Source: Candidatus Latescibacterota bacterium (lineage in GTDB: Bacteria > Latescibacterota > UBA2968 > SICM01). From it: a stretch of 41,268 bases of DNA. The notes below the pieces were generated by a model that was given only the letters and a program-made list of their open reading frames with translations, ran no database searches and was not told the DNA's origin. Of the stretch, positions 6,913 through 41,113 are shown piece after piece; within the stretch, counting starts at the first letter, position 1; each line of letters begins with the position of its first letter. The stretch lies in assembly GCA_009694805.1 (NCBI GenBank), contig SICM01000018.1, positions 1-41,268 on the forward strand, written 5' to 3'. A program made the position numbers and the translations under genes.

Positions 6913-6971
6913 CGTATCTCGTGAAGCGTGAAGCGTAAGAGTCTCTTACGAGATACGAGATACGAGATACG
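6913..6971. repeat. Intergenic palindromic element, CGTATCTCGTGAAGC family, copy 1
   Basis: CGTATCTCGT (6913-6922) and a threefold direct repeat of ACGAGAT (6948-6971, ending in ACGAGATACG) form inverted arms around GAAGCGTGAAGCGTA. A closely similar element lies at 15123-15181. It sits between the divergent Yip1-like and aldo/keto reductase genes, just upstream of the latter's ribosome-binding site. No coding function is evident. Confidence 0.75.
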
Positions 6972-15122: not shown

Positions 15123-15181
15123 CGTATCTTGTGAAGCATGAAGCGTGAAGCGTAGAATGCTTTTACGAGATACGAGATACG
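15123..15181. repeat. Intergenic palindromic element, CGTATCTCGTGAAGC family, copy 2
   Basis: CGTATCTTGTGAAGCATGAA, a second GCGTGAAGCGTA unit, then TTACGAGATACGAGATACG closing at 15181 reproduce the arrangement at 6913-6971. The arms are inverted and the interior is a direct repeat of TGAAGCG. It fills the gap between sthA and the MOSC gene and reaches to within four bases of the sthA stop. Confidence 0.75.
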
Positions 15182-26391: not shown

Positions 26392-26440
26392 GGCAACCTC
26401 CTTAAATGAAAAGTGCAAATGAAAGGCGGTGCTCGTACCT

Positions 26441-26478
26441 TGCATTTTGCATTCTCCATTTTGCATTTTGCATTCTCC
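26441..26478. repeat. TGCATTTTGCATTCTCC tandem repeat
   Basis: Two copies of the unit TGCATTTTGCATTCTCC occur at 26441-26457 and 26462-26478, joined by ATTT. The minus-strand reading (GGAGAATGCAAAATGCA) directly abuts the TAG stop of the enolase-superfamily gene. It lies between the two genes of the likely operon. Confidence 0.7.
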
Positions 26479-27554
26479 TATTTCATGAATCCCCACTCCC
26501 GGTCCGTCAGCGCCTCCAACTTCGCCTCGTCGAGTTCCATCCCCAGGCCCGGGCCGTCCGGGACGACCAGATATCCCTGCTCGTACTTCACCCGTGTCAC
26601 AACCACGTCATCGATGTAGAGCTGCGCCCCGGCGGCATCCCCCGGAAAGTCCAGGTTGGCCACGGAGGCCCCCAGGTGCGCCTGCGCCGAGGTCCCGATG
26701 GACAGCTCCTGCGTGGTCCCGATCAGCGTCCTGAGCCCCAGCGCCTCCGCCGCCGCGAACAGGTCCCGCGCCCGCCGGATGCCCTGGTTGCACACCGCGA
26801 TGTTCAGGATGTCCACGGCCTGCGCCCGCGCGAAGGCCACGGCCTGCGCCACGCTCTCGCAATGCTCGCTGATCGGAAACCGGACCGCCTCCCGCACCTT
26901 CGCCATCCCCTCCAGGTCCGGACACGGGCTCTCCACCAGCATCGGCTCCACCCACCCCAGCCGCTCCACGGCCCGGATCGTGGACTTCCAGTCCAGCGTC
27001 CGGCTGAAGTCCAGGGACTTGACCTTCACCGCATCCCCGTGGGTCTCCTTCAACGTCCGCAGGAAAAGCTCGTCCGCGTCCAGATTCCCCCCCACATACA
27101 GCCGGATCAGATCGAACCCCAGCTTCAGCACCTCCCCGACGCGCTCGACGTTCTTCGCCACCTCGCTCACGTCCCGGTGCCGGAAGATCGGGTAACAGAT
27201 CTTGTATCGCTTCCGGTACGCGCCCCCGTAGAGGTCGTGGACCGGCACGCCCAGGGCCTTCCCCCGCAGGTCGTGGATGGCCGTGTCGATGCCCGCCCCC
27301 AGGGGCGTGGGGAACCGGTCCACCACAGAATCGATTCGCCCCGGGTCGAACGGGTCTGCCCCGGCCATCGCCTTCCGGAGCGCCCCTTCGAGCTGGTCCA
27401 CGTCCGGCATGACCGGGCTGTGCCCCAGGTCCGACATCTCCCCGATCCCGGTGATGCCCCCGTCCGTCCCCAGCCTCACGATGATGTGCGGGGAGGCGGA
27501 CCCCGTGGCCCGCCGCGTGCCCACCGGATACAGCTTCAGGTCCGTGATGCGCAT
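26478..27554 (-). CDS. Mandelate racemase / muconate lactonizing enzyme family protein
   Basis: The 358-residue enolase-superfamily protein probably dehydrates, epimerises or racemises a sugar acid or related carboxylate with Mg2+. The capping domain is N-terminal (MRITDLKLYPVGTRR). The barrel holds a KxK-like motif (AVKVKSLDF), metal ligands D in SLDFSR, E in LVESPCPD and E in ISEHCES, and a later loop GTTQELSIG. The start at 27554 is preceded by GGAGGG. Neighbouring aldo/keto reductase suggests a shared catabolic pathway for sugar acids. Confidence 0.88.
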   Translation of the reverse strand: MRITDLKLYPVGTRRATGSASPHIIVRLGTDGGITGIGEMSDLGHSPVMPDVDQLEGALRKAMAGADPFDPGRIDSVVDRFPTPLGAGIDTAIHDLRGKALGVPVHDLYGGAYRKRYKICYPIFRHRDVSEVAKNVERVGEVLKLGFDLIRLYVGGNLDADELFLRTLKETHGDAVKVKSLDFSRTLDWKSTIRAVERLGWVEPMLVESPCPDLEGMAKVREAVRFPISEHCESVAQAVAFARAQAVDILNIAVCNQGIRRARDLFAAAEALGLRTLIGTTQELSIGTSAQAHLGASVANLDFPGDAAGAQLYIDDVVVTRVKYEQGYLVVPDGPGLGMELDEAKLEALTDREWGFMK

Positions 27555-37352: not shown

Positions 37353-37733
37353 TCAGGAGATGGGAGGGCGGAAGACCTTCAGAGGGTGAATATCCGCGAA
37401 GAGAACGGATGACGCCGGAGGCGCATCCGTCGAAGGGGGGAGATGGATGAGGGAAGTTCGATGCGTGGCTACAGCAAAGACGTGGCAGGTACAGACCTTA
37501 CCGTTGTGGCAGGGGATAACCGGCAGACTCCCGGAGGGTCTGGCCTCAGGACGAGCCCCCTGGATTCCTTCCTGATCGTGGACGTGATGCCCTGGGACGT
37601 CGTGATCGCAGAGCGTCAAAACGACGTACGCCTGCTCACCATAAAGCATCAGGGAGAGAATGAGACACGTGAATGACTTGAATAGGATCATCATAGAAAG
37701 TCTGTTAAACTTGTGGGCGGGGGTCGCTTTCAC
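37353..37733 (-). CDS. Small secreted Cys/His-rich protein upstream of czcCBA
   Basis: The 126-residue protein begins with a hydrophobic export segment (MMILFKSFTCLILSLMLYG, residues 14-32) followed by histidine/cysteine-rich stretches: CDHDVPGHHVHD and PCHNGKVCTCH. These look like periplasmic metal-binding sites, comparable in position and style to CzcI-type accessory proteins, though I cannot assign a family. The GTG start at 37733 overlaps the CorC-like stop by 4 bases (GTGA), with GGGGAG nearby, so it is coupled to that gene. Internal ATG codons at about 37694 are alternatives but without ribosome-binding sites. Confidence 0.6.
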   Translation of the reverse strand: MKATPAHKFNRLSMMILFKSFTCLILSLMLYGEQAYVVLTLCDHDVPGHHVHDQEGIQGARPEARPSGSLPVIPCHNGKVCTCHVFAVATHRTSLIHLPPSTDAPPASSVLFADIHPLKVFRPPIS

Positions 37734-39064
37734 GTCTCCCCTTTGTCGTTTTCCGTCTCAGGTTCCTTTTCCTGCATCACCAGCACCCGCACGATCCGCC
37801 GCCGGTGTAATTCCAGCACTTTGAGCAGATGGCCATTCGCCTTCACCTCGTCCCCTCGCACTGCCACCCGCCCCAGACGGTACTGGATGTAGCCCCCTAT
37901 CGTATCCGTATCCCCCTGCACATCCGGGAGGGCCACCCTGGTCCGATCCGCGAGGTCGTCGATCTGCATCTGGCCGCTCACCCGGTAGTGCCCCTCCGGC
38001 GTCTTCTCGATCTCAGGCGCTTCCTGATCCATCTCATCCTGGATCTCCCCCACCAGTTCCTCCAGGACATCCTCCAGGGTGACGATGCCCGACGTGCCTC
38101 CGTACTCGTCCACCACGATGGCCATGTGGATGCGGCTCCTCTGGAACCGCTTCAGAAGGGTCTCCACCCGCTGGCTCTCCGGCACAAACAGACATTCCCG
38201 CTTGAGGGCCACGATCCCCTCGGCGCTGGGCGGCCCCTCCGGCTGGCCCAGGTAGCGCAGCAGGTCCTTCGCATACAGGATGCCGATGGGATGATCCAGG
38301 TCTCCGTCGCACAGCGGGAACCGGGAATAGGCGTGCTCGATCACCGTGGTGACGATCTGCTGCCACGTGGCCGACGTGGAGATATAGGCCACGTCCACGC
38401 GGGGCACCATGATCTGCTTCACCGCCCGCTCCGTGATGTCCAGCGCGCCCTCCAGAAGCTCGTGCCTCTGCTCGGACAGGACGCCGCTCTGCTCGGAGTG
38501 TTCGAGGATGATCCGGATCTCCTCCGCCGAATGGGCCAGGTCGTGCCCCCCTACCGGTGTGATGCCCACGGTGCGCAGGAGCAGGTTGGCCGACCCGTTG
38601 AACACCCAGATGGCTGGGAGAAAGAGGTAGTAGAAGGCCTGGAGCGGCAGGGCCACCCCCAGCGTCGTCTGCTCGGCCCGCTGGATGGCCAGCGACTTGG
38701 GCGCCAGTTCCCCCAGGACGACGTGCAGGAAGGAGATGATCAGAAAGGCGACGGTCAGTGAGGTCGTATGGAGCGCCTTCTCCGACAGGAACCCCATCCA
38801 CGCGAACAGGGGCTCCACCAGGAGATGCGCCACGGCGGGTTCCCCCACCCATCCCAGGCCCAGGCTGGCCAGGGTGATGCCGATCTGCGTCGCAGACAGG
38901 TAGGCATCCAGGTGATAAACGATGTTTTGAGCCATCTTCGCCCCCGGCCGCCCCTCTGCGACCAGCTCCTGAAGACGGCTCAGGCGGACCTTCACGATGG
39001 CGAACTCCGCCGCCACGAAGAACCCGTTCAGGAACACCAGCAGCGCTGCCAGGATCAGAAGCAT
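37730..39064 (-). CDS. CNNM/CorC-type membrane protein with CBS pair (hemolysin family)
   Basis: The 444-residue protein has an N-terminal DUF21/CNNM membrane domain (about four hydrophobic segments, with LNGFFVAAEFAIVKVRLSRLQEL and ATQIGITLASLGLGWVGEPAVAHL). Two CBS domains (IMVPRVDVAYIS and FQRSRIHMAIVVDEYGGTSGIVTLEDVLEELVGEI) and a C-terminal CorC/HlyC domain (YRVSGQMQIDDLADRTRV) follow. Members affect Mg2+ or Co2+ flux across the inner membrane. The start at 39064 has AGAGGA before it. The TTG at 39085 is less likely. A promoter and structured leader precede it, and the next genes are metal efflux. Confidence 0.9.
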   Translation of the reverse strand: MLLILAALLVFLNGFFVAAEFAIVKVRLSRLQELVAEGRPGAKMAQNIVYHLDAYLSATQIGITLASLGLGWVGEPAVAHLLVEPLFAWMGFLSEKALHTTSLTVAFLIISFLHVVLGELAPKSLAIQRAEQTTLGVALPLQAFYYLFLPAIWVFNGSANLLLRTVGITPVGGHDLAHSAEEIRIILEHSEQSGVLSEQRHELLEGALDITERAVKQIMVPRVDVAYISTSATWQQIVTTVIEHAYSRFPLCDGDLDHPIGILYAKDLLRYLGQPEGPPSAEGIVALKRECLFVPESQRVETLLKRFQRSRIHMAIVVDEYGGTSGIVTLEDVLEELVGEIQDEMDQEAPEIEKTPEGHYRVSGQMQIDDLADRTRVALPDVQGDTDTIGGYIQYRLGRVAVRGDEVKANGHLLKVLELHRRRIVRVLVMQEKEPETENDKGET

Positions 39065-39087
39065 CCAGTCCTCTTGGGAAAGCAAAA

Positions 39088-39163
39088 TCAGGGGTCAGGG
39101 ATCAGGGGTCAGGAAAAGCGAGGATCATCTTTTGTCTTTCCCCGACACCCGACACCCGACCCC
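39088..39163. repeat. GGGGTCA/GGGATCA direct repeats and CCCGACACCC repeats
   Basis: Alternating 7-base units GGGGTCA and GGGATCA cover 39091-39113. A second run, CCCGACACCCGACACCCGAC followed by CCC, covers 39141-39163. Both are short intergenic repeats between the CorC-like gene and its upstream leader. The two runs are imperfect inverses of each other and could pair. Confidence 0.55.
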
Positions 39164-39276
39164 GCAGTTATCTTTTCCCCGCCCCCGTTCTGACCGCCTC
39201 AATATAATATGAAACCCGGCGCAAAGCAAGCGGCCCGCACCTCTCAGGTCACGAACAACATCGTCTCAATAGAAAC

Positions 39277-39441
39277 GGGCAGAGACGGTTACGAGAGAGA
39301 TATCTCCCGCATCTCTGCCCTTCAGGGCGCTTAAAAAGAGGCCCGGCCACCCTCACCCATAGCTGGTCGGGGCAGCTACAGGAGGAGAGCGCCGGGCCAA
39401 TGTCGGAAGTCGCCTGAAAAGAAGGGGCCTTCATATTATCT
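39277..39441 (-). ncRNA. Candidate structured leader or small RNA upstream of the CorC-like gene
   Basis: Transcription from the promoter at 39448-39476 would enter a non-coding stretch with two stable helices. GGCCCGGC pairs (39391-39398 with 39340-39347 on the complement), followed by TCTTTTT, like an intrinsic terminator. A second stem is GGGCAGAGA with TCTCTGCCC (39312-39320 with 39277-39285). It may be a short RNA of about 110 bases or an attenuator or riboswitch for the downstream metal genes. I do not recognise a known class. Confidence 0.5.
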
Positions 39442-39447
39442 GACCAG

Positions 39448-39476
39448 AATATACGGCAAGCGCAATGGCGTGTCAA
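39448..39476 (-). promoter_or_regulatory. Near-consensus sigma-70 promoter
   Basis: On the minus strand TTGACA (39471-39476) and TATATT (39448-39453) are separated by exactly 17 bases. It is the best promoter match in the window, pointing to the CorC-like gene and the metal-efflux genes beyond. Confidence 0.75.
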
Positions 39477-39507: not shown

Positions 39508-40255
39508 CTACAACGCCGGCAGCAGGTTCGTCAGCCCGAAGATGAAGACCAGCCCCACGACCAGACTGTACGTCCCCGTGGCCACGGCCCGGTAGACCGA
39601 CGCCCGCCCGGCCGCCGAGCCGTACAGGCCGATGGACGCGGCGCACATCAGCGTGTTCGTCACCAGCAGACCGACCACGAACGACAGCACCCCGAACACA
39701 CCCAGGCTGGCCCCTCCCAGGCCGGTGGCCACCAGGAACAGCAGCAGTTGCGTCGGCGTCTCGGCCCCGATGCCGTGGATCATCCCCACCACAAAAGAGG
39801 ACCGCCCCCCATATCCGTCCCTGAAGATCTCCCTCCGTTGACCCTGAACCCCGGCCAGACCCGTCCGGCAGCGGTCGTAGGCCCAGAGGAGGGTGTCGGC
39901 CAGCACGGCGACCCGGCTCTTCATCCGGAACGCCTCATCCCGATTCTTGACCAGCGTGTAGAACACATAGCCGCCCAGCAGGACCAGCGTCACGCCGACC
40001 AGACGCTCCATCAGCACATCGGTGCCTGCCGGCAGGCGCACCCCCAGGGATATGGCAAGGATGCCGAGCGTCGCGACGACGAACCCGTGCCCTGCGGCAT
40101 ACATCAGGCCGAGCAGCATCCCCCCGCCTCCGGCTGGCCTGCACACTGGTGATGTCGGTGATCGCGGCGATGTGGTCGTAGTCGATCCCGTGCCGGATCC
40201 CCAGCAGAAACGTCGCCCCTACCGCCATCCAGACCTGTCCACCCGGATCGCCCAT
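39508..40255 (-). pseudogene. NicO-type nickel/cobalt transporter split by a frameshift
   Basis: The N-terminal part (from ATG 40255) reads VGATFLLGIRHGIDYDHIAA ITDITSVQ, the metal-binding helix of NiCoT/NicO transporters. The rest of the protein continues in another frame (GMLLGLMYAAGHGFVVATLG to the stop at 39508, with a second histidine motif GMIHGIGAETPTQLLLFLV). Frames change at a run of six C (plus strand 40120-40125); removing one base joins them into one protein of about 248 residues with about six membrane segments. The cause may be sequencing error, a real mutation, or slippage in the homopolymer. It lies 18 bases after larC, so a role in nickel uptake is likely. Confidence 0.82.
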
Positions 40256-40273: not shown

Positions 40274-41113
40274 TTACAGGGGTCTGCCGATGCAGATCCG
40301 CAGCAGATTGGGCCGATCCGGAAAATCCTTGGTCCCGGCCCCGTACCCGATCTGTTCCACCACCATGTCGGGCCTCGGCCCGAACCCGGCGCACAGGACC
40401 CGCAGCAGCGCGGCCCCGGTGGGCGTCACCAGCTCCGTCTTCAGGTCGCTCGTCCGCGTCGGAATCCCCTTTAAAAGCTCCAGCGTGGCCGGGGCCGGCA
40501 CGGGGACGATCCCGTGGCTGAAGGTCACCGTCCCCCCTCCGCACAGCGGCACCTCCGAGGCAAAGACCTTCTCCACGCCCATCTCGTGCAGCGCCAGGCA
40601 GGCGCCCACAATGTCCACAATGGAATCCACGGCCCCCACCTCGTGGAAATGGACCGCCTCCAGGGTCGTGTTGTGCAGGTGCGCCTCCGCCTCCCCGATG
40701 GCCCGGAACACCGCCCGCGCGTTCCCCCGGACAGGTTCGGGCAGGCCGCCCCCCTCGATCATCCGCGTGATTTCTGCCAGATGCCTGCCGTGAGGCTCAT
40801 GGTCGTGATCGTGAGCATGCCGATGGCCAGGCCCGTGGTCGTGGGAGGGCTCATGATCGTGCCCGTGCCCATGTTCCTGTCGCGGGTCTGACTCGTCACG
40901 CTCTTCCATCACCTCGAACTTCGTCCCGCCCAGGCCGCGCCGCGTGACCCGGCGGGCGTCGATGCGGACCCCTTTCAGACCCACGCCCGCCAGCGCCTCC
41001 CGAAGCCGCTCGATGGGAAACCCCGCGTCGATCATCGCCCCGACGAACATATCCCCGGCGATCCCCGTGGCCATGTCGATGTAGGCGATGCGGTGTGGTT
41101 TATCAGCGGACAT
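40274..41113 (-). CDS. larC: LarC-type nickel-pincer-cofactor protein lacking its C-terminal domain
   Basis: The 279-residue protein matches the first domain of LarC (IDMATGIAGDMFVGAMIDAG, residues 12-31; HFHEVGAVDSIVDIVG; VPVPAPATLELLKG; LVTPTGAALLR). LarC inserts nickel into the cofactor of lactate racemase. A histidine-rich segment at residues 81-111 could hold nickel. LarC is usually about 400 residues, with a second domain that carries out metal insertion. Here the frame stops at 40274 after NLLRICIGRPL and a nickel transporter gene follows instead. A TAGGAG site precedes the ATG. In some lactobacilli the two domains are joined by frameshifting, but I find no second domain nearby. Confidence 0.85.
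   Translation of the reverse strand: MSADKPHRIAYIDMATGIAGDMFVGAMIDAGFPIERLREALAGVGLKGVRIDARRVTRRGLGGTKFEVMEERDESDPRQEHGHGHDHEPSHDHGPGHRHAHDHDHEPHGRHLAEITRMIEGGGLPEPVRGNARAVFRAIGEAEAHLHNTTLEAVHFHEVGAVDSIVDIVGACLALHEMGVEKVFASEVPLCGGGTVTFSHGIVPVPAPATLELLKGIPTRTSDLKTELVTPTGAALLRVLCAGFGPRPDMVVEQIGYGAGTKDFPDRPNLLRICIGRPL

Follow-up and report, generated by a model that had tools for sequence, protein, structure and literature searches.

The intergenic region between a nickel-transporter-like gene and corC in the genome of a Candidatus Latescibacterota bacterium probably combines the end of one operon with the start of the next. The region is part of the window analysed here, by which the whole stretch of 41,268 nt from contig SICM01000018.1 (assembly GCA_009694805.1) is meant. 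Its most prominent structure, hairpin 1, is probably a strong intrinsic terminator that closes the operon of larC and the nickel transporter, while a promoter between the transporter and the hairpin (P1) would give rise to an RNA of about 109 nt that also stops at this hairpin, and corC and the efflux genes would use a promoter of their own (P2). A strong promoter and stable stems in front of metal genes make a riboswitch reading tempting, but the arrangement is best explained here by one operon ending where another begins.

Gene order and promoters

All genes of the locus are encoded on the minus strand, where larC is followed by the nickel transporter gene, the promoter and hairpin region, CNNM/CorC, an ORF of 126 aa that contains Cys and His, and czcC-, czcB- and czcA-like ORFs, the last three being named from their sequences and not by a family search. 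This is the layout that had been given in an initial annotation of the same DNA (a CorC-like gene, a Cys/His-rich gene and czcCBA), which had also described a near-perfect promoter TTGACA-N17-TATATT, a GC-rich stem with a T-tract, and a second stem; its coordinates for the promoter and for both stems were all correct. On the 3' side of P1 follow, in this order, hairpin 1, hairpin 2, a small third stem, the weaker promoter-like site P2, an imperfect palindrome of heptamers, and corC (Table 1). The start codon of corC is likely ATG 39064, which is preceded by a GAGG 6-7 nt upstream, rather than TTG 39085. The nickel-transporter-like gene is broken across two frames near a G-run (GGCGGGGGG, window positions 40100-40160), which reflects either a genuine frameshift or a mistake in the assembly, and a 212-aa part of this gene had no Pfam match.

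Table 1. Features of the larC-corC locus in window coordinates
Feature	Position	Strand	Basis
larC-like gene	40274..41113	(-)	Ni_insertion, PF01969
Nickel/cobalt-transporter-like gene, two frames, frameshift near 40146	39508..40255	(-)	HGIDYDHIAAI motif
Promoter P1, TTGACA-N17-TATATT, 11/12 consensus bases	39448..39476	(-)	consensus match, weight matrix
Predicted non-coding RNA, about 109 nt	39333..39441	(-)	start inferred about 7 nt past the -10 box; end in U-tract
Hairpin 1 with U-tract, copy A of the six-copy family, apical loop YCYYGAC	39333..39398	(-)	folding, blastn, covariance model
Hairpin 2, GGGCAGAGA...UCUCUGCCC, outside the repeated family	39277..39320	(-)	folding, blastn
P2, candidate corC promoter, TTGCTT-N17-TATATT	39201..39229	(-)	weight matrix; ranks second in the intergenic region
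Heptamer-repeat palindrome, imperfect, in the corC 5' UTR (GGGTGTC.../...CCCTGACCCCTGA)	39087..39165	(-)	repeat scan
corC/CNNM gene	37730..39064	(-)	CNNM, CBS and CorC_HlyC domains

P1 starts 31 nt past the stop codon of the nickel-transporter-like gene (39508), and in a weight matrix of 43 columns that was trained without the window it scores 23.7 bits. Its match to the consensus stands far above the background of reversed sequence: in 1.61 Mb, a sample of about a third of the genome whose stretches deliberately include the contigs that carry hairpin copies, there are 46 matches (45 distinct) with at least 11 of the 12 consensus bases and none in the reversed-sequence control, and weight-matrix sites of at least 18 bits were observed 64 times as compared with 4 times in the control. 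P2 resembles the consensus weakly and scores 9.6 bits, the next best site of the region having 2.9 bits, and equally good sites occur in the control at a rate of about 0.06 per kb. It lies 104 nt past hairpin 1, and from this weaker promoter, which is also past hairpin 2, corC and the metal-efflux genes would be transcribed.

Hairpin 1 and the predicted small RNA

Hairpin 1 begins 50 bases past the -10 box of P1 and consists of a stem of 59 nt (39398-39340) with the U-tract UCUUUUU, which extends to 39333, immediately behind it. Folded alone it has a minimum free energy of -42.5 kcal/mol, and its lower-stem pairs have a probability of about 1 in the fold of the 109-nt transcript. The z-score of folding is -2.75 for a 115-nt transcript and -6.5 for the 203-nt region, where none of 200 shuffles was equally stable. 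The hairpin lies 110 nt past the nickel-transporter stop, at the end of a transcription unit, and it shares with intrinsic (Rho-independent) terminators the GC-rich hairpin, the U-tract, and the site behind a stop codon or ahead of a following promoter, but the family to which it belongs is unusually long (62-66 nt), and has related sequences and apical loops in six dispersed copies. The transcripts of larC and of the nickel transporter would be halted at this hairpin. The second stem, hairpin 2, is also stable (-28 kcal/mol), and a proper T-tract is absent behind it (GTTTCTATTG).

From P1, a separate transcript of about 109 nt would be started that ends at the same hairpin, with the terminator being shared with the larC operon. 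As in a small-RNA gene, there is an own promoter and an own terminator and no protein-coding gene between them; conservation does not extend beyond the terminator, since a blastn search with 241 bases matched the hairpin only (query 73-148), and the part of the RNA that is 5' of the hairpin is conserved in no other copy. An ATG 8 nt past the predicted start opens a frame of 61 codons across the hairpin, and attenuation by a leader peptide with its Ser and Cys codons was considered and rejected, as this frame has no ribosome-binding site, has its stop past the terminator, and is not kept in the other copies. No Hfq gene was found in the genome, which is 92% complete, and an Hfq-dependent small RNA is therefore unlikely; as the 5' part is unconserved too, any regulatory role of the predicted RNA is hypothetical.

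Small RNAs of the 3' UTR type can be transcribed from a separate promoter that lies behind a gene whose terminator they share. The candidate resembles these in the strong promoter just past a stop codon, in its length, and in the shared terminator, whereas it differs from them by the unconserved 5' part and in that no Hfq gene was found. Should the short RNA exist, it would be a first candidate of its kind for a lineage with no other member of its order among the compared genomes.

Alternatively, the hairpin may be a terminator only, and P1 may be inactive or serve occasional read-through, in which case no stable small RNA would be formed. The lack of a promoter before the hairpin in most copies (B, C, E) is in line with this, as are the unconserved 5' part and the failure to find Hfq, but P1 is one of the 45 top-ranking promoters of the 1.6 Mb, none of that quality was found in the reversed control, and it stands in a non-coding stretch, and we regard a terminator without an RNA of its own as unlikely.

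Four similar terminators of a CCCGCTGTCGAG..CGACAGCGGGTTTTTTGTT type were noted at L092:15050-15290, L045:9800-10060 and about 10317, and L086:14945-15260. Three of the four are preceded by a strong promoter at a distance of 180-235 nt, the reading frames between being short and mutually different, and Rfam gave no match at these loci. These promoter-terminator units are possibly small-RNA or small-protein units.

Attenuation and riboswitch readings

The hairpin region precedes metal-transport genes just like the Rfam families of metal riboswitches (NiCo, M-box, yybP-ykoY, Mg sensors), but it has no Rfam match at a useful score and no competing structures. Searches at gathering and at permissive thresholds gave only chance matches of the microRNA type and other sub-threshold matches, in agreement with the initial annotation, which had recognized no known Mg or Mn riboswitch motif. 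When the lower stem of hairpin 1 was forbidden in the 109-nt fold, both of its arms were left unpaired and the rest of the fold remained unchanged, at a loss of 21 kcal/mol; no antiterminator competes with the hairpin, and as no replacement pairing is formed the leader contains no partner for a switch. A lack of the stems ahead of corC orthologues had been named as a result that would speak against the regulatory reading, and this is the outcome at 29 loci of CorC homologues, where the best chance match to the hairpin had E = 4, but it is a weak test, as the loci are from class- and phylum-level relatives only. A search of genome contigs with CorC gave only one distant homologue.

In principle, hairpin 1 could be a conditional terminator in a corC leader, where a metal, a protein or a small RNA decides on the read-through into corC and czcCBA. 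The order of promoter, leader, terminator and gene is the one expected for an attenuator, the apical loop is conserved, and the hairpin copy D2 has the same order, with a promoter of 11/12 consensus bases, about 130 nt, the hairpin and an SprT-like gene, and with no better promoter between. It is this shared order of copies A and D2 for which we keep conditional termination at all, as a distinctly unlikely reading, given that the lower stem has no rival pairing, that P2 lies beyond the hairpin, that known riboswitches do not match, that the copies adjoin functionally unrelated genes, and that the leaders of A and D2 are unlike each other by eye. Several copies stand before a promoter and therefore cannot be leaders. 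The initial annotation had left the choice between a metal-responsive attenuator or riboswitch and a short RNA, and for the reasons above only the latter part is retained, as a prediction, because a credible promoter and a credible terminator frame some 109 nt in which no convincing gene lies.

The dispersed hairpin family and the heptamer repeats

A second copy of hairpin 1 was found by blastn of the whole genome with the region (76% identity, E 3e-7), again with similarity in the hairpin only. A covariance model made from these first two copies alone detected four more, one in C70 (49.8 bits), two in C62 (40.2 and 29.9 bits), which are 232 nt apart, and one in C269 (35.3 bits), and no other site of the genome exceeded 20.4 bits, copy A read on its reverse strand excepted. 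In about 100 other genomes, none of which is of the same order, the same model detected no member of the family (best score 23.1 bits), and "lineage-specific" therefore means only that it is unseen at class distance or beyond. A blastn search against phages and plasmids and a pattern scan of viral contigs gave no match either. A model of all six sequences, which gives high scores to its training copies by construction, had further matches of 26-36 bits both in this genome and elsewhere, and these were rejected as members, being mostly short hairpins of 26-41 nt, of which the inspected ones are ordinary terminators whose lower stem is similar. Site F in C87 (66 nt, 20-25 bits) is a doubtful member. 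Upstream of F and of copy C, a protein family is encoded that starts with MAW.KR.RG.RY (L008:519-1361, L013:1689-2596), with no Pfam match for the L008 member and with the member at F split over two frames.

The stem of the family varies by paired changes: among the copies, 5 of the 19 pairs are changed on both sides, and if the pairing is slid by 1-3 columns, the paired cells fall from 86% to 31-55%. The apical loop, with the variants CCCCGAC, UCCCGAC, UCCUGAC, UCUCGAC and UCCCCGAC, is 76% identical across the copies when the deviating copy D1 is left out. The neighbours are a dienelactone hydrolase (DLH) and then a class-III aminotransferase at copy B, a protein of unknown family and then an FG-GAP-like protein at C, and a GntR/FCD regulator and then an enolase-superfamily-like gene at E, while D1 is preceded by a Gfo/Idh/MocA oxidoreductase and D2 followed by the SprT-like gene; the enolase and FG-GAP names were given from the sequences and not searched. 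A stop codon precedes copies B and E by 45-50 nt, and B, D1 and E, half of the six copies, have a TTGACA-type promoter not more than 50 nt behind them (that of D1 with an 18-nt spacer), whereas among the other intergenic terminators this holds for 8 of 209 (Fisher p 0.002, which is only indicative, as the automatic intergenic filter retained 4 of the 6 members and the family positions were checked by hand). A site after stop codons and before promoters is the position of a terminator and not that of a leader.

Why dispersed terminators should have a conserved loop is a modest question. The six hairpins with their YCYYGAC loop might form a lineage-specific regulatory RNA module in which a protein or a small RNA binds the loop and alters termination or RNA stability at all sites, and if that were true, there would be a small termination regulon that includes corC and the metal efflux (copy A) as well as the SprT-like gene (copy D2), but we consider such a module very improbable. 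An even slighter chance is given to a small mobile or duplicating element, consisting of the terminator and sometimes the following promoter, that was spread by copying and has termination as its only function. Sites B and C29b, which are on the same contig, are nearly letter-for-letter the same in terminator stem and promoter (TTGACACCCGGC[A/G]GTGC[C/G]CGCCTTACATTG), and the family is unseen outside this genome, but neither terminal repeats nor target duplications were seen, the copies are diverged, the long ones are only six, and they are in terminator orientation wherever the neighbouring genes are clear. Such an element would be compatible with, rather than opposed to, a terminator that closes the larC operon. 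Two terminator-plus-promoter units 3.6 kb apart (L063:3986-4060 and L063:7572-7668), the promoters of which are nearly identical and of the sequence just given, suggest that a terminator-promoter unit may have been copied.

The palindrome in the corC 5' UTR belongs to a type of repeat that is strikingly frequent in this genome. Tandem heptamer tracts occur 212 times in the 1.61 Mb, versus 2-52 times for any other period between 4 and 14, with doubled heptamers counting towards period 14, and in the window they are found at 39087-39165, 26440-26483, 6946-6971 and 15132-15152. A self-complementary partner arm within 110 nt is present in 52 of the 212; a distant-window control gave 0, and every other period apart from 14 gave 0-1. 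The palindromic arms comprise 33 different heptamer words, a looser count of palindromes gives 76, and many of the tracts are pairs of self-complementary arms that form long intergenic hairpins. Intergenic repeats of seven bases have been described in Xanthomonas and Nostoc (PMC4692102), in Geobacter metallireducens (PMC2700814) and in Beggiatoaceae (PMC4679880). Palindromic heptamers with so many words in one genome merit a separate look, and further examples are the tracts at L027:13796-13924, L085:4786-4872 and L017:2477-2536.
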